49,738 nt of DNA from a virus. Made by a program: the position numbers and the translations under genes. Positions 9,479 to 28,510 of the stretch are shown piece after piece. The notes under the pieces were generated by a model, which was given only the letters and a program-made list of their open reading frames with translations, did not search any database and was not told where the DNA came from. Every line of letters starts with the position of its first letter. Positions within the stretch are counted from its first letter, which is position 1. Location of the stretch: IMG/VR virus record IMGVR_UViG_3300031566_000066, positions 1 through 49,738 of that record. One strand, given 5' to 3'.

Positions 9479-11554
9479 ATGGGGAGGGCTTTAGCGAAGG
9501 CTATGGCCCCCAACCCCAAACAAGCGCGGAAAGCGTACATCGTGACTCCAGGTCTACTGGACGCCACGTTTACGGTCTGGGCCGAAGATCCGATCGAAAA
9601 GGCTTGGATCGATACCTTTGCGTCTCGCGTCGCGTCTCGCCACTTGGGTGAGGCAGACGGCCACGACATCGGCATGTCCGCCGACCCGCTCCGTCCCGGT
9701 GGTGAGGGTCTGGACGAGGACGAGGACGAGGACGAGCAGGACGACGAGAAGGACGAGATGAACGAGGTGCCGATGCCCCAGGGGCACTCGGAGCTTCCCG
9801 GCGCGCTGTTGGCAAGTGTTAGCCGGCGCTTCATGGCGAAGGCAACCGGGCCGCGCACGGGGGACGGCTCCAGTGCGGGTCTTTTCATCCGGCTGCCCAA
9901 GAATCTGGCCATTCAATTTCCCGGTCTCGGGGAGAATGACGATTCCCCGAGCCACGTTACGTTTCTCTACATTGGCGACTACACAGACAAGGCCGAACAG
10001 GCTCGTTTGGTCGAGACGCTACGCGACTGTCTCCGTCGCTGGTGGCCCAAGTGCAAGGCGATCCTCGGCCCCTTGGAGTATTTCGACCACGCCGACAAGA
10101 ACCGTCGAGTTCCCCACGTGTCCGTCGATTTCGACAAAGACTTGTCGGGGTTCAAACAGCGGGTCATGCAGGAGCTACGAGATGAGGGCTTTGAGGTCGG
10201 TGACAAGTTTCCCGAATTCAAGCCTCACGTCACCCTCGCCTATCTCCCCGGTATGGACGGGGAGTGGGACAAGCACGTTCCAAGCGGCTCGTGGGACGTG
10301 ACGGAGATGGAGGTCTGGGGGCTGCCTCGCGTACACACGATCCCCATTGGCAAGGCGTCCAACCTCCGTGTGGCCTCCGTGTGGATCGAAGCCTCGGCGC
10401 ACCGACGGTCCATCGCGCTCATGCGCTTCCTGTCCAGGGTTGCGCAGAACCACGGTGTCGGCCAACACACCTACGTTGTGGGAGGCGCCGTCCGCAACTT
10501 CCTGATCGACAAGCCGATCAAGGATATCGACGTGGTGATCGATTCGGTCGCCGCAGGCAAGGATTCCGAATGGTTCGCCGATCAAGTAGCGCGGGCCATC
10601 CCGACGCAGACGAACCTGACCACGAATCAATACGGCGTCGCCATCCTGACGGTGAAGGGCGACTGGGAGTTGGACGGCGACAACTTGAAGGGCGAGGTGA
10701 TCGAGATCGCCAACGCTCGCAAGGAGAGCTATGGGGGCGCGGCGGGCAAGGGCTACAAGCCGTCTGAGGTCGAGCCCGCCACTATCGAGGAGGACGTGTA
10801 CCGACGTGAATTCACGTTCAACACGCTCCTGTGGAGGCTCATGGACCTCACCCACGGTCCTGAGAAGGCCGAGATCATCGACCTTACCGGCTGCGGGAAG
10901 CGGCATTTGGAGGAGGGCATTCTCCAGTGTCCGGCGGACCCCGACAAGGTGTTCTCCGACGACCCCACACGCATCCTTCGCGCGATCAAATTCACGGGCA
11001 AGTACGGCTTCAAGGTCCCCCCCGATCTGGCGAAGGCGATCAAACGGAACGCTCCGAAGATGAAGGGAATGCCTTACGAGGCGCTCATGTCGATCTTGGT
11101 CGATGCAATTCTGCCGGAGCCGACGGCTCGCAAATCCCTGAAGCAGATGAAGGAGCTTGGCATCCTCGACGTGCTGCACGACATGGTGCGGGAGCAGAAG
11201 TCGTTTTCCTCTGCCCTCGCTCGCGTGCTGGGCAAGGAGCGCCGTGTGGGGCTTCTTCTCGACTGGCTCGACCTGGGCCTCCCCGCCAAGACCTCGCTTT
11301 CGTTCCTGGCTCCGCGCGACCGCCAACGAGTCCGAGAGATCACGGTTCGGATGGAGTCGGACGAAGCCCAAGGGTTCTTCGACGCCCTTGTGAAGCCCCC
11401 CGTCAACAACGGGGAAGTCATCAGCAGGCTGAAGCTGGAAGGCCGTGACCGAGGGCGCATCATGCCCTTCGCTCGCTCCCTCATCCTCAACAAGCCTGAG
11501 CTTGCGTTCCACGGGTCAGCCCTGACAGCCCACGTGATCAAGGAGTGGTCGTGA
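9479..11554 (+). CDS. 2H phosphoesterase - CCA-adding-type nucleotidyltransferase fusion
   Basis: Two RNA-repair domains lie in one chain. Residues ~134-290 form a 2H phosphoesterase (2'-5' RNA ligase/cyclic phosphodiesterase fold), with HVTFLYIG (159-166) and HVTLAYL (250-256) giving the two HxT motifs. Residues ~325-600 match class II tRNA nucleotidyltransferase/poly(A) polymerase: GGAVRN (335-340), the metal-binding DIDVVID (349-355), RREFTFN, and DDPTRILRAIKF. The N-terminal ~110 residues contain an acidic run (Asp/Glu, ~78-95) and RVASRH/SRRFMA tags. The start is uncertain, because ATG 9503 would remove eight residues. The stop overlaps the next gene as GTGA. It may be virion-associated, acting on host tRNA during infection. 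Confidence 0.85.
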   Translation: MGRALAKAMAPNPKQARKAYIVTPGLLDATFTVWAEDPIEKAWIDTFASRVASRHLGEADGHDIGMSADPLRPGGEGLDEDEDEDEQDDEKDEMNEVPMPQGHSELPGALLASVSRRFMAKATGPRTGDGSSAGLFIRLPKNLAIQFPGLGENDDSPSHVTFLYIGDYTDKAEQARLVETLRDCLRRWWPKCKAILGPLEYFDHADKNRRVPHVSVDFDKDLSGFKQRVMQELRDEGFEVGDKFPEFKPHVTLAYLPGMDGEWDKHVPSGSWDVTEMEVWGLPRVHTIPIGKASNLRVASVWIEASAHRRSIALMRFLSRVAQNHGVGQHTYVVGGAVRNFLIDKPIKDIDVVIDSVAAGKDSEWFADQVARAIPTQTNLTTNQYGVAILTVKGDWELDGDNLKGEVIEIANARKESYGGAAGKGYKPSEVEPATIEEDVYRREFTFNTLLWRLMDLTHGPEKAEIIDLTGCGKRHLEEGILQCPADPDKVFSDDPTRILRAIKFTGKYGFKVPPDLAKAIKRNAPKMKGMPYEALMSILVDAILPEPTARKSLKQMKELGILDVLHDMVREQKSFSSALARVLGKERRVGLLLDWLDLGLPAKTSLSFLAPRDRQRVREITVRMESDEAQGFFDALVKPPVNNGEVISRLKLEGRDRGRIMPFARSLILNKPELAFHGSALTAHVIKEWS

Positions 11555-21104: not shown

Positions 21105-21980
21105 ATGGCAAACGTATCCAACGCTGTAAAGCAAAAGATCATCTCGGACTACATCCGTACTCCGAGTGGCCGAGCGAAGCTCGCTGCGTCGATGACTCAG
21201 CCCCTTCGTACCCGACGCGACTACACTTCTGTAGGCCGCCGTACCTTCCTTGTTGAGCAACTGCCTGACGGCGCGTTGCCCATCTACGACAAGGATCCCG
21301 ATGTGACTGCGTACGTGGTCGGTGAAGAGGGTGAGAACATCCTCGCTATCACCAAGCCGCGTCGTGTCATCTTCCCTCTGTTTGAGATCGCCTCCAACCC
21401 GGAGATCCCTCTCACTCAGATCAAGGAGCGTCGCTTCGATCTCATCGAGCGCGCCCAGGATCTCGCACGTGCGCAGATTCAGGCTGCCGAAGACGAGCGC
21501 GTCTTCGCTATCCTTGACGCCATCGCAACGGTCGGCTTCGACTCGCTGCCTGGTGGGCTCAACCCAGACATTCCGGTGGTCGCTCCGATCTCCGGTGCGG
21601 TGCTGGCCGACGCCTTTGCTCTCATCGAGCGCCACGACCTCCGGGTCGCTCGCGTGTACATGAACGCACGGGACTACGCCGACATTCGTAAGTTTGGTCG
21701 GGACATTCTGGACATTGAGTCGCAAGCGACTCTGCTCAAGACTGGTCTGCAAGCTACCCTTTGGGGCGCCCAGATCATCACGAGCCGTCTCGTTCCCGTG
21801 GGCACGGTCTACGTGTGCTGCGAACCCGAGATGTTTGGCCGGATTCCAGTTCGTACGGAACTAACGGTCCTGTCGGCTGATGATCCGCGTGCGCGGACCA
21901 TTGGGTTCTCGGTTTTCGAGAACCTTGGCATCGGGGCGTACAACCCCCGCGGTCTGACCCGTCTGACGATTACCCGCTAG
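21105..21980 (+). CDS. major capsid protein (HK97 fold)
   Basis: This 291-residue protein starts at ATG 21105 with AGGAG (21091-21095) upstream. The long helical segment KERRFDLIERAQDLARAQIQ (~108-127) looks like the spine helix, and the segment ARDYADIRKFGRDILDIES (188-206) followed by ATLWGAQIITS resembles the C-terminal part of HK97-type capsid proteins. It self-assembles into the icosahedral shell. Position after protease, scaffold and decoration genes and before a strong terminator supports the call. A related copy of residues ~181-240 occurs in the HTH protein at 27731. Confidence 0.85.
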   Translation: MANVSNAVKQKIISDYIRTPSGRAKLAASMTQPLRTRRDYTSVGRRTFLVEQLPDGALPIYDKDPDVTAYVVGEEGENILAITKPRRVIFPLFEIASNPEIPLTQIKERRFDLIERAQDLARAQIQAAEDERVFAILDAIATVGFDSLPGGLNPDIPVVAPISGAVLADAFALIERHDLRVARVYMNARDYADIRKFGRDILDIESQATLLKTGLQATLWGAQIITSRLVPVGTVYVCCEPEMFGRIPVRTELTVLSADDPRARTIGFSVFENLGIGAYNPRGLTRLTITR

Positions 21981-22005: not shown

Positions 22006-22040
22006 AGAAAACCCCGAGGCTTCGGCCTCGGGGTTTTCTT
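22006..22040 (+). terminator. strong rho-independent terminator after the capsid gene
   Basis: A 15-bp stem (22006-22020 with 22025-22039) is capped by a TTCG tetraloop. It has an A tract on the 5' side and TTTTCTT on the 3' side, so it can work in both directions. It closes the virion transcription unit. A small extra hairpin (CCCGCT/AGCGGG, 21973-21987) overlaps the capsid stop codon. Confidence 0.9.
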
Positions 22041-22130
22041 CGTTTTTGTCCCTTCGTTTCTAAATCCCCAACACTTCTATACCTGGATGTTTCTGCTGGG
22101 CACGGGTTGCCCATGGGACGCTATCGGGGT

Positions 22131-24083
22131 ATGGGTGTGTTGCGCATGTCTGGGAACGGGACGAAAACTCTTCAAGACCTCACAGAAGCCGATCTGCGGC
22201 AGTTGTACCTGATCGATCTGCTGACCCTCACTCAGATCGCCAAGCTGTACTCCACGACCCAAGCATCGATCAGCAGGAGACGACGCAAGTGGGGCATCGA
22301 GACGTTGGGCAAGACGGGCCGCAAGGCTCTCCAGCTACCCGCCCTGACCCCCAAGCAGTGCGAGCTACTGGTCGGCTCCCTGCTCGGTGACGGGTCCATG
22401 AGTGCCCCGAGCCATCGCACAGCCCGGTTTACGGAGGGCCACAGTATGAAGCAGGCGGCCTACACTGAGTGGAAGGCAGAGCTTCTACAGCCCTTCACGT
22501 CCACGGTGGCCGACGCCACGAAGGTCAAGGACGGGAAGGTCTATCAGACCCGGTACTTCACCACGCAAACCTGTACGGCGCTCCGGCCTTACTACGACCT
22601 GTTCTACACCGGAGAGGGGCGTGTGTTCCCGGCTTCATTGCCCGATCTGATCACGCCCTTTGTGTTGGCGGTTTGGTTCATGGACGATGGCACCCTCAGC
22701 AACCGATTCCACCCTCGCATCACGTTTGGGCTCGATGACTTGAGCCGGAAGCGTGCGTTCAGAGCGCTGCGAAAGCTCGGCCTTAAGCCGGTTCTTCACG
22801 AGGAGGGGTCCACGATCAGTATCGACTTCCCGGGTCAGTCGGAGGTGTTCTTTGACATGGTGGGGCCCCACCTGCACGAGTGCATGGAGTACAAGCGGCC
22901 CCGCGAGAGTGAGCGCCGGGAACAAGACAAGAATGCACGGAAGCTGACCCCGGAGACGGCGCGTGAATTGTACGATGGCAACATGAGCGTGTCGGAGATC
23001 TCCGACCTGTACGGGGTCGGTCGGTCCACCGTCCATCGGCGCATCCATAACGAGGGTGCCCCCAAGAGGATGGGCCGCCCACGTCGTTCGTACTCGCTCA
23101 GGGCGGCCGAGGAGGTGTTGGCGAACATTGACCACAAGGCTTGGTCGAACCTGCCTCAAGAGGGGCAGGACACCCAGGTTGAACATGTGGTGGAGGTGTT
23201 GCGAAATCTCGGCTTCCCCACGCCCGAGCCCTGGGCAGAGGATCGGATGGCGACGGAGCGTGGGAAGCTGGCTGCTCTGCAAACAACCTGCGTGGATGGG
23301 GCGATTGGTCCGCAATCGTGGAGGGGTACGCAAGCCTGCGCCTCCTTTTTTCCGCATCGGTATCGAAGCTCTTACAGGGGACGCGACACCGCGTATGAAA
23401 AGTGGCACGACGACAAGGCGTTGACCTCGGCCGTGCGGTTCCAACTGAGCCACGGTGATCCTGTCCTGCCCCATCGTGTCCTGCGTGCGTTGACGATGCA
23501 GTACCGGACACCCGGTGTGTTCCGGCCCGTGGTCGCTAAGCACCTCTACACCACCTATTGCAAACCAGGAGGCAAGGTGTGGGACCCTTGTGCGGGATGG
23601 GGTGGCCGCCTAATGGGCGCCGTGACGGCGGGTGTTGAGTACCTCGGCACGGATGTGGAATTTGCAACGGTGGAGGGAAACCGGGAGATTGCCAAGGCGT
23701 TGGGAGCCCAGGCATCCCTTGTTCATTCGCCTGCCGAAGAATTCGATCCGCCAGAGGTGGATTTCGTGTTTACCTCCCCCCCGTACTTCGACGTGGAACA
23801 CTACGGCGTGAGCCCCTCGCAATCGTTCCGGCTCTACGAGAACTTCGACGCCTGGGTTGAGGGGTTCCTTCGTCCAGTCATCGAGACGGCGCTCAAAGCT
23901 GCGCCGGTCCTCGCCTTGAACGTGGCCCCGATCCGCAAGCGGAAGCAGGTGATCGATTTGCCGAGCAAGGTCGTGGAGGTGGCGACAGAGGTTGGGTTTC
24001 TTCACACCGAAACGTTGAGGATGCCCCTGGCCTCGCTGAACCGGAAAAACGCGTCGGAGCCGGTGCTCGTGTTTCGGCGCTGA
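22131..24083 (+). CDS. LAGLIDADG endonuclease - DNA methyltransferase fusion
   Basis: ATG 22131 is chosen because GGGGT precedes it as in the recurrent start element, though ATG 22107 or 22113 are possible. Residues 20-58 hold a helix-turn-helix. Residues 70-250 form a LAGLIDADG homing endonuclease with both signature helices, LVGSLLGDG (80-88) and LAVWFMDDG (179-187), each ending in acidic residues. A second HTH lies at 272-305. Residues ~330-650 form an amino-methyltransferase: WDPCAGWGG (484-492, SAM binding) and TSPPYF (548-553, catalytic, N6-adenine or N4-cytosine type). Cutting and modifying activities in one chain recall a restriction-modification enzyme. It is the first gene after the capsid terminator. 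Confidence 0.85.
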   Translation: MGVLRMSGNGTKTLQDLTEADLRQLYLIDLLTLTQIAKLYSTTQASISRRRRKWGIETLGKTGRKALQLPALTPKQCELLVGSLLGDGSMSAPSHRTARFTEGHSMKQAAYTEWKAELLQPFTSTVADATKVKDGKVYQTRYFTTQTCTALRPYYDLFYTGEGRVFPASLPDLITPFVLAVWFMDDGTLSNRFHPRITFGLDDLSRKRAFRALRKLGLKPVLHEEGSTISIDFPGQSEVFFDMVGPHLHECMEYKRPRESERREQDKNARKLTPETARELYDGNMSVSEISDLYGVGRSTVHRRIHNEGAPKRMGRPRRSYSLRAAEEVLANIDHKAWSNLPQEGQDTQVEHVVEVLRNLGFPTPEPWAEDRMATERGKLAALQTTCVDGAIGPQSWRGTQACASFFPHRYRSSYRGRDTAYEKWHDDKALTSAVRFQLSHGDPVLPHRVLRALTMQYRTPGVFRPVVAKHLYTTYCKPGGKVWDPCAGWGGRLMGAVTAGVEYLGTDVEFATVEGNREIAKALGAQASLVHSPAEEFDPPEVDFVFTSPPYFDVEHYGVSPSQSFRLYENFDAWVEGFLRPVIETALKAAPVLALNVAPIRKRKQVIDLPSKVVEVATEVGFLHTETLRMPLASLNRKNASEPVLVFRR

Positions 24084-24230
24084 GTCCAGTTGTACGACCT
24101 GTGTAGGCGGCTCGGATCGGGCACTTGAATTGGGGACTTTGGTTTCGTTACGGACCCGGGTAAAACTCCCGGCGCCACAAGCGGGGAACGACCTTTGCAT
24201 CGTCGGGTGAAGGTTTCGATCTTGTCGTGT
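24084..24230 (+). other. intergenic stretch with tmRNA/tRNA 3'-end-like sequence
   Basis: There is no gene here. At about 24152-24182 lies GGACCCGGGTAAAACTCCCG followed by GCGCCACA, resembling the T-arm and acceptor end of tmRNA, with a GGTTTCG block just upstream. The T-loop is atypical (TAAAACT) and no matching 5' acceptor strand was found, so it is not called as an RNA gene. It could be a remnant or an attachment-site-like sequence. Confidence 0.25.
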
Positions 24231-24247
24231 TTGTCGTAAGGAAGGGT
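24231..24247 (+). promoter_or_regulatory. start-proximal element, helicase gene
   Basis: TTGTCG-TAAGGA-AGGGT touches GTG 24248. It differs by a few bases from the elements at 29018, 31811, 34508 and 37934 and keeps the same five-base gap between the TAAGNN block and the start codon. AAGGA could alternatively act as a Shine-Dalgarno sequence. Confidence 0.5.
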
Positions 24248-27064
24248 GTGGACAGGCAACCTCCTCGCAAAACGCTCTATTCATCGCAGGTTGAGGCCCA
24301 CCGGGCCCTTTATTCCTTCTGGGCGGCGGGGGATCCGGTTTTCGGGCTTGTGAGCCCTACCGGGTCGGGCAAGACGACCATCGTTAAATCGGTAGCTGCC
24401 CGCTTCAAGGAGGAGGGGGGCGGCGGACGGCGCGGGGTGAGGGCCCTTTTTGTGGTGGTCCCGCAGAACCACATCCAAGATGGGTTCAGGGAACCGGCCA
24501 CGCTTGTCGTGCCCGGCGAGGGCACTTTCACGATCGGGCCTACAACATGGCTCCCCGGACAAAGCACCACAACGCATCGGATCCGGGGGATGCTCCACGC
24601 GAAGAAGCGTTCGCAGTGGTTTGGGGCGACGTGCTCCTATCAGATGATGATCAATGCTCTCGATGGAGACCCTGATCTCACGGGCTGCTGCTTGTCGATT
24701 GACGAAGCCCAGCACGCGGGCGAGGGGGTCACGAAATTGTACGAGTTGGAGCGCAGGTGGGTCGCGCTCGGGGGTCAGGTGCTCAAGATCACGGCAACGC
24801 CCTACCGTCACGACGGGCGAGACGTTTTCAAACCGGGTCAGCCCCGGTACGTCAAGACGATCGCCGAACACGCACTCGACACCGACTCGGAAGGCAACCC
24901 GCTTGTCCCTCCGAACATGATCATGGTGGCGGAGCGGTTGCCCGGCTACACCGTGAAGAACCGCAAGGAGTTGAACGGTCAGTCGGCCCCTGCTCAGATC
25001 AAGGGGAATGCGACTGCGGCGATCGTCAAGCGGTGGGAAAAGGACGGAAAGCCGAAGCTCGTCGTGGTCGTTCCACAGTGGAAATCAAAGGTGTGGGCCT
25101 CCAAACTTCAGAAGGCGTTTGAGCGCAAAGGCGCTCGGGTGGTCAACGCGGTAGGCACGGGGAAGGGCGCACAGGCCCGGCTTCGGGCCGTGCTTGACCA
25201 TGAGCGAAATGTCTCAAAAATCGAGGATTCAACGGTTGACGTGATCCTCGCCTGCAAGCGGTTCGATGAAGGGACGGATTGGCCGCTGTGTAGTCACCTT
25301 TATGCTGTTGGTTTTCCCGGCAGTTTCCCCTTGATCGTTCAGAGGTGGGGGCGGACCTTCCGTCCGAAGCATCATATCGTAGGCCACCCCCACCCCGACC
25401 ACGCTGTTATCGTGTTCTTCTGCCCTCGGCCGGAAGGTATTGGAGACAACGCTATGAAGGCCCACAAGCGTGCCGCGCTGTTGAGCGCGTGTTTTCTCCA
25501 CGACCACAGCACGGCGAAGGCGTACACGCGGATCGCACGGGTCATCTCTGCGCTCAGGAAGGGTTTGTCCGACTCCCTGGGTGACGAGGGCAGTCGCCAG
25601 TCTGGCGAGGTTGTGCCTGACGAGGGCAAGATGGCGATGGCGAAAGCCAAGTTGTCAAGGAAGGCAACGATCGAGCAGATCCTCGCGCAAGGGCACGACC
25701 TCGCAGTGCGGATCCAGCTTGCGGTTCAAGTCGGGGTGCCCGAGAAGGAAATCCGACGGGCAATCACTCAACGAATCCGTAACGCGCAAGACCCGATCGC
25801 CCCAGCGCTCAGTGCGGCCTTTGATGATGTGCTTGCGCAGTACCGCGACCTTGAGGTCACTTTCGAGGAAGGCGTGTTAGCGATGATCGGTATGTTCACA
25901 GGCGAGACGATCAAGGACATTTCTCGACGCCTCTCCGCACGTCTGCGGACAATGGATTCAACGATGGCGGAGATTCGGGAATTCTTCGACAAGCACGGCA
26001 GTCGCCCGACGAAGATTGATATGGACCCCGCAAATCAGTGGTTGAGGCGACAGCATCGTTCGTCCATCTCCAAGCTGTGCGACGAGATGGGGCTTCCAAG
26101 CGAGAAACGAACAATGGAGTCAACGATGGCGGAGATTCGGGAATTCTTCGACAAGCACGGCTGTCGCCCGACGACGAAAGATCTTACCGTTCAGGGCGCG
26201 TGGCTGACGCGACACGGTTCTTCCCTGTCCGCGTTGTGCGAAGAAATGGGGCTGCCGGGAGACTCCCTCGTCTACCACCTGTCGAGAACGATGGCGTCCG
26301 CCAGAGCCGAGGTTCGGGAATTCTTCGACAAGCACGGCCGTCGCCCTAAATCGAAGGAAGTCCCAGCCTTATACGCGTGGTTGCGATCGAACCACATGAC
26401 TCCCCTGACAGCGTTGTGTGACGAGATGGGGCTTCCAGATGGGGGACGGACGATGGAGTCCACTAGGATCGAGGTTCGGGAATTCTTTGACAAGCATGAC
26501 CGTCGCCCTAAGTGGGCGGAGAGACCAACCTTGGCGAGATGGTTGAGGGACCAACACACGTCCTTGTCTGATCTGTGTGACGAGATGGGGTTTCCAGAGG
26601 AAGGAAGGACGATGGAGTCTACGAGGAAGGAGATTCGAGAATTCTTCGACCGACATGGGCAATGCCCTACGAAGAAGGGTATGAACACGGCAAACGAGTG
26701 GTTGAAGCGAAGGCATACCTCCGTCCCTAAATTGTGCGAAGAAATGGGGCTTCCGATGGAGTCCGCCAGAACCGAGGTTCGGGATTTCTTTGACAAGCAC
26801 GGCCGTCGCCCGAAGTGGAAGGAGGTGCGCTCCTTGACCCATCGGTTGCGATCGAACGGCATGACCCTGACCGCGTTGTGCGACGAGATGGGGTTTCCAG
26901 ACGGGAAACGGACGATGGGGTCCGCTATGGCCGAGGTTCGGGATTTCTTTGGCAAGCACGGTCGCCGCCCTAAATCGAAGGATCTGGCAAACATTGATGC
27001 GTGGCTACGCGCACGGGGTTCCTCCCTCCGCAAGCTCTGCGACGAAATGGGGCTGCCCAAATGA
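24248..27064 (+). CDS. SF2 helicase with seven C-terminal tandem repeats
   Basis: GTG 24248 is preferred over GTG 24227 because it follows the start element and AAGGA. Helicase motifs counted from it are SPTGSGKTT (36-44, Walker A), DEAQH (152-156), TATPYR (182-187), FDEGTDWP (~339-346) and QRWGRTFRP (365-373). This is a DEAH/type III restriction-like SF2 ATPase that moves on or remodels DNA or RNA. From residue ~569 to the end lie seven repeats of about 48-59 residues that start MxSxxxExREFFDKHGRRP and end WLR...LCDEMGLP. They resemble in style the helicase-associated repeat domains that may bind nucleic acid. The gene overlaps the next by four bases (ATGA). Confidence 0.85.
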   Translation: MDRQPPRKTLYSSQVEAHRALYSFWAAGDPVFGLVSPTGSGKTTIVKSVAARFKEEGGGGRRGVRALFVVVPQNHIQDGFREPATLVVPGEGTFTIGPTTWLPGQSTTTHRIRGMLHAKKRSQWFGATCSYQMMINALDGDPDLTGCCLSIDEAQHAGEGVTKLYELERRWVALGGQVLKITATPYRHDGRDVFKPGQPRYVKTIAEHALDTDSEGNPLVPPNMIMVAERLPGYTVKNRKELNGQSAPAQIKGNATAAIVKRWEKDGKPKLVVVVPQWKSKVWASKLQKAFERKGARVVNAVGTGKGAQARLRAVLDHERNVSKIEDSTVDVILACKRFDEGTDWPLCSHLYAVGFPGSFPLIVQRWGRTFRPKHHIVGHPHPDHAVIVFFCPRPEGIGDNAMKAHKRAALLSACFLHDHSTAKAYTRIARVISALRKGLSDSLGDEGSRQSGEVVPDEGKMAMAKAKLSRKATIEQILAQGHDLAVRIQLAVQVGVPEKEIRRAITQRIRNAQDPIAPALSAAFDDVLAQYRDLEVTFEEGVLAMIGMFTGETIKDISRRLSARLRTMDSTMAEIREFFDKHGSRPTKIDMDPANQWLRRQHRSSISKLCDEMGLPSEKRTMESTMAEIREFFDKHGCRPTTKDLTVQGAWLTRHGSSLSALCEEMGLPGDSLVYHLSRTMASARAEVREFFDKHGRRPKSKEVPALYAWLRSNHMTPLTALCDEMGLPDGGRTMESTRIEVREFFDKHDRRPKWAERPTLARWLRDQHTSLSDLCDEMGFPEEGRTMESTRKEIREFFDRHGQCPTKKGMNTANEWLKRRHTSVPKLCEEMGLPMESARTEVRDFFDKHGRRPKWKEVRSLTHRLRSNGMTLTALCDEMGFPDGKRTMGSAMAEVRDFFGKHGRRPKSKDLANIDAWLRARGSSLRKLCDEMGLPK
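25952..27058 (+). repeat. seven tandem ~160-bp coding repeats
   Basis: Repeat units start at 25952, 26114, 26291, 26453, 26612, 26756 and 26915. Each encodes a helix (EIREFFDKHG), a short basic linker (RRPKxK), a Trp-Leu-Arg segment and LCDEMGLP. DNA identity between units is high in the first ~45 bases, which points to recent duplication or recombination and a copy number likely to vary. Confidence 0.9.
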
Positions 27065-27718: not shown

Positions 27719-27730
27719 TACAATCCAGAC
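27719..27730 (+). promoter_or_regulatory. start-proximal -10-like element, HTH-capsid-like gene
   Basis: TACAAT (27719-27724) lies six bases before ATG 27731, with CTGACAGG upstream. It matches the element before RNase HII (CTGACGG-TACAGT, five bases before ATG). The position suits a -10 box for a leaderless mRNA. No Shine-Dalgarno sequence is present. Confidence 0.55.
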
Positions 27731-28510
27731 ATGAGTTGCACAGCCACGACCATCCTTGAGTGCGAGAACGGCGGCTGCCCTGATCACGATCTGGAGACCG
27801 GCATCTGGATCGATTCGGTCGCGCGGTGGTCGGCGGGTGGCTCGACACCCGAGCAGATCGCCAAGGATTTGGGCATCCCGGTTGAGATGGTCACGCCTCA
27901 CCTCCAAACCTCCGAAGAGGCGAAGGCGAAGCGGGAAGCCTTTCAGGATCAAAGGTCGGCCATGATCACGACCCTGTATTCGATGGGGCAGTACACGCAG
28001 GTCGAAATTGCAGACCAGCTTAACATCTCGCAGGCCGTGGTCGCCTACCACCTTGCCCGCCAACGGGAGACGGAGCCCAACACCGTCAGGGAGAAATTCG
28101 GTCGCCTCACCCGCGAGACCCAAGACCTGGGTGCCATCCTCAAAGCTGCGGCGTTCGGTGCCCCGCTTGTGTCTTCGCGGATCGAGGTTGGATACCCGGT
28201 GTGCCCCGAGGACCTCCGCGACCCGCTTGGGGTCGTAGCTTCCGCCGCCACCGTGCGGGGCATGGTCATGGGCGCACGCACCTTTGCGGACATGCGTGTG
28301 TTTGGCCGTGACGTACTGGAGATCGAGACCATCGCTGCCAAGTTGAAAGCGGACCTATACGCCCGACTGTGGGATGTGCCTTTGTTCGTCATCCGGCCGA
28401 TCGATGCCTCCATCTGGATTGTGGGCCAGTGCGACGACGGGTCCTGGGTCCGGCAAGAGGTTGTCCCCAAGCCCGAACCCGCCGACGATCGGATCCGGTT
28501 TCGGATCTGA
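27731..28510 (+). CDS. HTH protein with a major-capsid-like C-terminal domain
   Basis: This is a 259-residue protein. Residues ~38-60 (STPEQIAKDLGIPVEMVTPH) and 86-110 (GQYTQVEIADQLNISQAVVA) are two helix-turn-helix segments of the kind that bind DNA. Residues ~174-235 align without large gaps to residues ~181-240 of the phage's own capsid protein: GARTFADMRVFGRDVLEIET against NARDYADIRKFGRDILDIES, followed by LWxxxxxVxR in both. The gene is not in the virion module and has its own promoter-like element. It could be a regulator that senses or interferes with capsid assembly, or a DNA-binding protein that has reused a capsid fold. Confidence 0.7.
   Translation: MSCTATTILECENGGCPDHDLETGIWIDSVARWSAGGSTPEQIAKDLGIPVEMVTPHLQTSEEAKAKREAFQDQRSAMITTLYSMGQYTQVEIADQLNISQAVVAYHLARQRETEPNTVREKFGRLTRETQDLGAILKAAAFGAPLVSSRIEVGYPVCPEDLRDPLGVVASAATVRGMVMGARTFADMRVFGRDVLEIETIAAKLKADLYARLWDVPLFVIRPIDASIWIVGQCDDGSWVRQEVVPKPEPADDRIRFRI

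Follow-up and report, generated by a model that had tools for sequence, protein, structure and literature searches.

The gene under study is located at positions 27731 to 28510 of the window, i.e. the whole stretch of 49,738 nucleotides (IMG/VR record IMGVR_UViG_3300031566_000066) that has been analysed here, and encodes a protein (P0001) whose N-terminal half is of the HTH type and whose C-terminal domain shares homology with the A domain of the HK97-fold major capsid protein (MCP) of the same phage. The window comes from a lineage of huge phages: its MCP is 90% identical to that of the 485-kb LR745208, and up to 98% identical to those of IMG/VR contigs. The features of the locus are listed in Table 1, together with the pieces of the MCP that occur in sister huge phages. 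The coordinates that a first-pass annotation of the DNA had given for the gene have proved to be right, with the ATG at 27731, the stop codon ending at 28510 and 259 residues on the plus strand. Codon usage indicates that the two halves of the frame are both coding: they score +0.23 and +0.19 per codon, with other frames at 0.02 or less, and the MCP gene scores +0.26 per codon.

Table 1. Features of the window (first eleven rows, window positions) and MCP pieces in sister huge phages (remaining rows, positions within the named locus)
Feature	Position	Strand	Basis or remark
P0001 gene (HTH + capsid-A-domain protein, 259 aa)	27731..28510	+	open frame, codon usage
First HTH, residues about 32-60	27824..27910	+	weak alone: HTH_23 E 0.037; Cbp1 tandem model
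Second HTH, residues about 77-111	27959..28063	+	Sigma70_r4_2 2e-5, GerE 7e-5; Foldseek
Predicted helix, residues 116-143, ahead of A domain	28076..28159	+	AlphaFold model; MCP-profile alignment begins at MCP position 142
Capsid A-domain-like domain, residues 150-250	28178..28480	+	sequence searches, profiles, predicted fold
Best-conserved segment, residues 180-214 (FADMRVFGRDVLEIE...LW)	28268..28372	+	57% identity to MCP 186-220
Source fold: major capsid protein, 291 aa	21105..21980	+	phrog_2522 E 1.5e-48; NF042927 E 1e-43; 6wkk E 6e-62
MCP region matching the P0001 domain, residues about 158-255	21576..21869	+	MCP-only profile, alignment
Terminator-like hairpin after MCP, 15-pair stem	22006..22039	+	sequence scan
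Function-unassigned ORF ending 16 nt before P0001	27001..27714	+	ORF list
TACAAT, 7 nt 5' of ATG, no -35 site found	27719..27724	+	not promoter evidence
P0003, A domain + zinc ribbon	L007 16890-17327		MCP-only profile E 9e-10
P0004, A-domain piece, 370 aa	L139 718-1827		MCP-only profile E 2.5e-16
Stand-alone A domain, 218-aa frame	L247		MCP-only profile E 3.9e-13
Stand-alone A domain, 358-aa frame	L249		MCP-only profile E 0.004
Stand-alone A domain, 145-aa frame	L248		MCP-only profile E 0.005
Zinc ribbon + A domain	L250		MCP-only profile E 0.026
N-arm, 113-aa frame	L272 807-1145	+	E 2e-19
Zinc ribbon + N-arm	L273 1095-1397	-	E 3e-13
N-arm	L274 800-1429	+	E 3e-10
N-arm	L275 904-1227	-	E 1e-8
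N-arm	L276 793-1065	+	E 3e-6
N-arm	L251 11180-11695	+	E 1e-5
N-arm	L277 546-1109	-	E 3e-5
N-arm, weak	L256 6808-7302		E 0.03

The first-pass annotation had described two HTH motifs in the N-terminal half and had placed the gene outside the virion operon, with a promoter-like element of its own. The second HTH motif has support, although its Pfam scores are just below the curated cut-offs (24.5 bits against 25.7, and 22.8 against 23.5), and the Foldseek matches of the HTH half are to LuxR-family HTH domains. The first motif is weak when taken alone, and is included in the match of the Cbp1 tandem-HTH model, which covers residues 30-110 at E 5e-5, below its own cut-off. The similarity of this half is to the HTH of LuxR/GerE regulators, sigma-70 region 4 regulators and Cbp1, and the half probably binds DNA, as judged from its sequence; it differs from these proteins in its sub-cut-off scores and in its partner, which is a capsid domain instead of a known sensor domain.

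The position outside the virion operon agrees with the order of the genes. The terminator-like hairpin closes the MCP unit and is followed by a LAGLIDADG-HTH-methyltransferase-like fusion (22107-24083), a helicase (ResIII, 24227-27064) carrying homing-endonuclease-associated repeats (HNH_repeat, PF18780) in an array at its C-terminus, the ORF at 27001 and then P0001, so that the hairpin and three non-virion ORFs intervene between the virion block and the gene. The promoter claim has found no support, because only the TACAAT is present, a scan of the gene for sigma-70-type sites having found none, and because the upstream ORF ends so close to the ATG; the two genes are possibly read together. 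A weak relative of this upstream ORF occurs near P0004, in L251. Fusions of a LAGLIDADG endonuclease with HTH and methyltransferase-like domains are located directly 3' of the MCP in many sister phages (L149 5586-7493; L006 10979-13471).

The contig of the nearest sister (L006, MCP 98% identical) has two blocks in common with the window, the virion block and that of RNase HII / phosphatase, but shares little of the region at 24.2-31.8 kb, and no stand-alone A domain has been found in it; we therefore place P0001 in a variable island, which is rich in homing-endonuclease-type genes. In the virion-side block of the window, the 691-residue protein at 9479-11554 contains a tRNA nucleotidyltransferase-like domain (phrog_2244, E 4e-29).

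The C-terminal domain and the capsid A domain

The alignment of the C-terminal part of P0001 to the MCP at 21105, which the first-pass annotation had reported, is borne out by our searches: residues 180-214 match MCP residues 186-220 without gaps, with 20 of the 35 positions identical (BLASTP, E 1e-9), and the match widens to residues 153-226 (E 1.9e-9) when the window's own record is searched. A profile built only from MCPs (21 sequences, including those of phage G, Tunturi_5, Myrna and RedWattleHog) retrieves P0001 at E 7.8e-8 from 1526 six-frame ORFs of the window and the sister regions, whereas the best reversed ORF has an E of only 2.8. The match is confined to positions 142-239 of the 298 positions of the profile, which should cover the last part of the spine helix together with the A domain; the end of the helix that is predicted ahead of the domain in P0001 may be the counterpart of the MCP spine-helix end. 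Conversely, a profile of six stand-alone domains, built without any MCP, has phage G gp27 (6wkk) as its top match among all PDB sequences (E 7.1e-10); the TALE matches of this profile have been ignored as repeat sums, in which no single stretch passes. BLASTP, the MCP-only profile, the stand-alone profile and the reversed controls together reject chance similarity, and the homology of the domain to the MCP A domain is real. PADLOC and NCBIfam searches have assigned no family to it, while the profile searches, a check that had been suggested with the alignment, place it with the MCPs and not in another family.

The fold of the domain has been predicted twice. In the AlphaFold model from an alignment of stand-alone and MCP rows, residues 150-250 have a pLDDT of about 82-95; the top PDB match in Foldseek is the NF5 capsid (probability 0.99, E 3e-3), with more capsids and encapsulins in the next rows, and VIA-align gives Z values up to 10.8. 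Since the MCP rows could bias the fold, the second prediction was made from stand-alone rows only (control alignment A4): the model has a pTM of 0.74, and all of the 50 rows listed by VIA are HK97-fold capsids or encapsulins, with a best Z of 11.3. The explanation that the fold is produced merely by the MCP rows has been rejected on these grounds, and structure prediction of the domain, likewise suggested earlier and followed here by comparison with known structures, supports an HK97 A-domain fold for the C-terminal domain of P0001.

Of the readings offered with the alignment (an assembly-sensing regulator, a capsid-interfering protein against competitor phages, or an old capsid duplicate reused as a regulatory domain), the results support a diverged capsid-fold duplicate joined to a probable DNA-binding half, which may serve in any of these three roles. 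A recent duplication of the phage's own MCP is unlikely, because the MCPs of the lineage are 90-98% identical, whereas the copy reaches 57% at best; a younger duplication followed by fast evolution could also have led to this divergence.

Among the closest known systems is the phage G gp27-type HK97 MCP (6wkk; phrog_2522; NF042927), whose A domain is homologous to that of P0001 by sequence and predicted fold. Compared with this type of MCP, P0001 keeps one capsid domain, without the N-arm, the E-loop and the C-terminal part, is fused to the HTH half and is encoded outside the virion block; the complete MCP fold (N-arm, E-loop, spine helix, P and A domains) is not present, the match being limited as described above. 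Encapsulins are a known case of a capsid fold used outside virions; they have kept the whole fold and the shell. The encapsulins (families 1, 2A and 2B) are among the best fold matches and use the capsid fold in a non-virion role, as is the case here, but they keep a complete shell protein and build shells, whereas P0001 has a single domain, fused to DNA-binding motifs. A single capsid domain with a DNA-binding half extends this known re-use of the capsid fold; our literature search, which covered few subscription papers, has found no published precedent for such a combination.

Capsid-protein pieces in sister huge phages

Sister huge phages contain six or more additional A-domain pieces, clear or probable, beside zinc ribbons or unassigned domains; the matches of P0004, L247, P0003, L249, L248 and L250 are all located in one MCP region, as for P0001. 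L252 (E 0.0015) is a possible A-domain member only, the matches of L253, L254 and L255 are too weak to count as members, and L149, a candidate from the homologue search, turned out to be an MCP. Four stand-alone A domains occur in one 618-kb phage, and none has been found in several large contigs, including LR745208, which makes the distribution patchy; absence is weak evidence here, because many contigs are fragments. Close homologues of P0001 have not been found in viral_contigs; in the homologue searches, P0003, L247, L249 and L250 have no match other than themselves, and the matches of P0004 are limited to two near-identical contigs. The significant matches among INPHARED phages are MCPs only, and bacterial genome contigs have given one match, MCP-like, in a MAG contig. 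The A-domain tree has long branches that it does not resolve, and is compatible with one or several origins.

In the stretch FGRDxLxIE, P0001 and P0003 keep residues that are typical of the MCP clade to which they belong; phage G and Tunturi_5 have different ones here. The domains of L248, L249 and L250 have lost much of the conserved capsomer-side loop. Two proteins from different phages (L139 718-1827 and L249 544-1611) have in common the N-terminal motif KFK..VR.RM..TGE.Y..A, well away from the capsid domain.

The first ~60 residues of the MCP, which are presumed to be the N-arm from their place in the chain, recur in small non-MCP proteins of sister huge phages. The E values of these pieces in Table 1 come from an MCP-only N-arm profile, while the candidates came from a profile that included two of them. 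The piece occurs alone, or is joined to zinc ribbons or to signal-like N-termini; in G002, one protein combines a zinc ribbon with the N-arm and another combines a similar ribbon with the A domain, and zinc ribbons are recurrent partners of MCP pieces. The weak N-arm ORF is located directly upstream of the L247 gene in G017, and the N-arm ORF of L251 is located ~1.5 kb upstream of P0004 in G007. Also in G002, the protein at 485761-486138 carries at its C-terminus a zinc ribbon resembling the one in P0003, and its gene lies just 5' of the gene for a stand-alone A domain (486251-486661, within L257), so that the two modules of P0003 are adjacent in this pair rather than fused. The proteins at L007 15906-16880 and L251 11180-11695 have a twin-arginine-like N-terminus and a C-terminal stretch that is similar by eye only; both are located near stand-alone A-domain genes, in two phages, and one of them carries an N-arm piece.

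The dispersal of other virion-block proteins was compared by one procedure for all profiles, in one large sister phage and selected regions. The MCP profile has 13 fragment matches, and none has been found with the profiles of the decoration-like protein 20427 (61 sequences), the protease-like protein 17535 (61 sequences) and the 16840 protein (36 sequences). Fragment-like matches also occur with the 9479 and 12885 profiles, and a few with the 18877 profile, where low-complexity bias is suspected; several other virion-block profiles, built from 1-7 sequences, are weak controls. Some of the searched regions had been picked for holding MCP pieces; the 618-kb contig was searched whole, and the MCP is prominent there too. 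Among the deeply profiled virion-block proteins, wide dispersal is limited to the MCP.

Possible roles of P0001

In the HK97 fold, the A domains meet around the capsomer axis and the N-arms reach over neighbouring subunits, both being contact elements; the N-arm is not expected to fold by itself. Because the dispersed elements are precisely the A domain and this presumably foldless N-arm, and because the clade residues are kept in FGRDxLxIE, we favour mimicry of capsid contacts: in our leading reading, which we hold tentatively and somewhat short of probable, P0001 is a captured, diverged MCP A domain on a tandem-HTH half, i.e. a DNA-contacting capsid mimic with an accessory role that would be linked to assembly or to conflict. 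The domain would have been captured from the phage's MCP, perhaps with the end of the spine helix, and joined to the tandem-HTH half; the HTH half would bind DNA, the A domain would make capsomer-type contacts with free MCP, with an MCP-handling factor or with other copies of P0001, and DNA binding would be coupled to the level of capsid protein, or the assembly of related phages would be disturbed. We infer binding to the MCP or to an MCP partner, and an accessory role in assembly control or phage conflict, from homology and fold obtained from independent directions, the HTH half, the A-domain and N-arm pieces of sister phages and the MCP-limited wide dispersal; the variable island and the patchy distribution suit an accessory or conflict gene. 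As a possible mode only, i.e. a small protein that interferes with assembly, this resembles the capsid-interfering proteins of satellites (the redirecting factors of SaPI, PLE and PICI), which are satellite-encoded scaffolds or size factors (e.g. PMC10945586) and are compared with P0001 by mode, not by homology.

Capsid contact may not be the function that all of these domains share, since those of L248-L250 have lost much of the conserved loop, and the same loss keeps plain re-use a serious, if unlikely, rival: the A domain would serve a transcription regulator as a general module for folding, ligand binding or self-association, its link with the capsid gone, in line with the strong divergence and with the resemblance of the HTH fusion to many one-component regulators. 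Such re-use leaves unexplained both the dispersal of the N-arm and the fact that other virion proteins are not dispersed.

A decoy role against host immunity, in which MCP pieces would occupy the host sensors that capsid protein triggers, is improbable: the MCP is known to set off Thoeris, CapRel and Lit (PMC11312562), and several different MCP pieces occur in fast-changing small proteins, but the HTH half would be unneeded, and a piece that still triggered the sensor would harm the phage. Quite improbable is a functionless by-product, i.e. MCP pieces copied and fused by break repair in a region rich in homing endonucleases; homing-endonuclease-type genes do adjoin the MCP and the distribution is sporadic, but the frame is open with good codon usage, the fold has been kept despite old divergence, sensible partner domains have been fused repeatedly, and many pieces are located far from the MCP locus. 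It is very improbable that P0001 is a virion component, placed in the head by an A domain that could in principle co-assemble with the MCP and holding genome DNA by its HTH half, since the gene lies outside the virion block, beyond the terminator-like hairpin, and has not been found in the contig of the closest relative, where one would expect a structural part to have been kept.

Returning to the capsid-mimic reading, the set of MCP pieces in huge phages suggests parts re-used for sensing, mimicking or disturbing virus assembly. It is conceivable, though we regard it as doubtful, that huge phages deploy fast-evolving capsid mimics (N-arm or A domain with DNA- or zinc-binding modules) that occupy the partners of the MCP, with P0001 as the HTH-bearing, DNA-linking member; these partners might be assembly factors, the host's sensors of capsid protein, or the MCP of a rival phage. 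As observed here, one capsid domain, and the N-arm on its own, has been excised, fused to modules of the nucleic-acid-binding or zinc type and distributed over the genomes of huge phages. If these proteins bind the MCP or its sensors, a directly testable link would arise between capsid assembly and gene control, or phage-phage or phage-host conflict, and some unannotated huge-phage genes would gain a name.

Small proteins of similar predicted fold occur in Erwinia phage Y3 and in Noxifer; the A2 profile has found nothing in these two phages, and the link is therefore one of fold alone. Two small uncharacterised proteins of Y3, Y3_244 (L271 1708-2085) and Y3_016 (L266 12201-12590), have sizes that fit A-domain-like BFVD models, the pairing with A0A2H4IBH4 (125 aa) and A0A2H4IAS8 (129 aa) having been made by length and the look of the sequence, not by accession. 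These predicted folds hint that the A-domain-like class may reach beyond this lineage.
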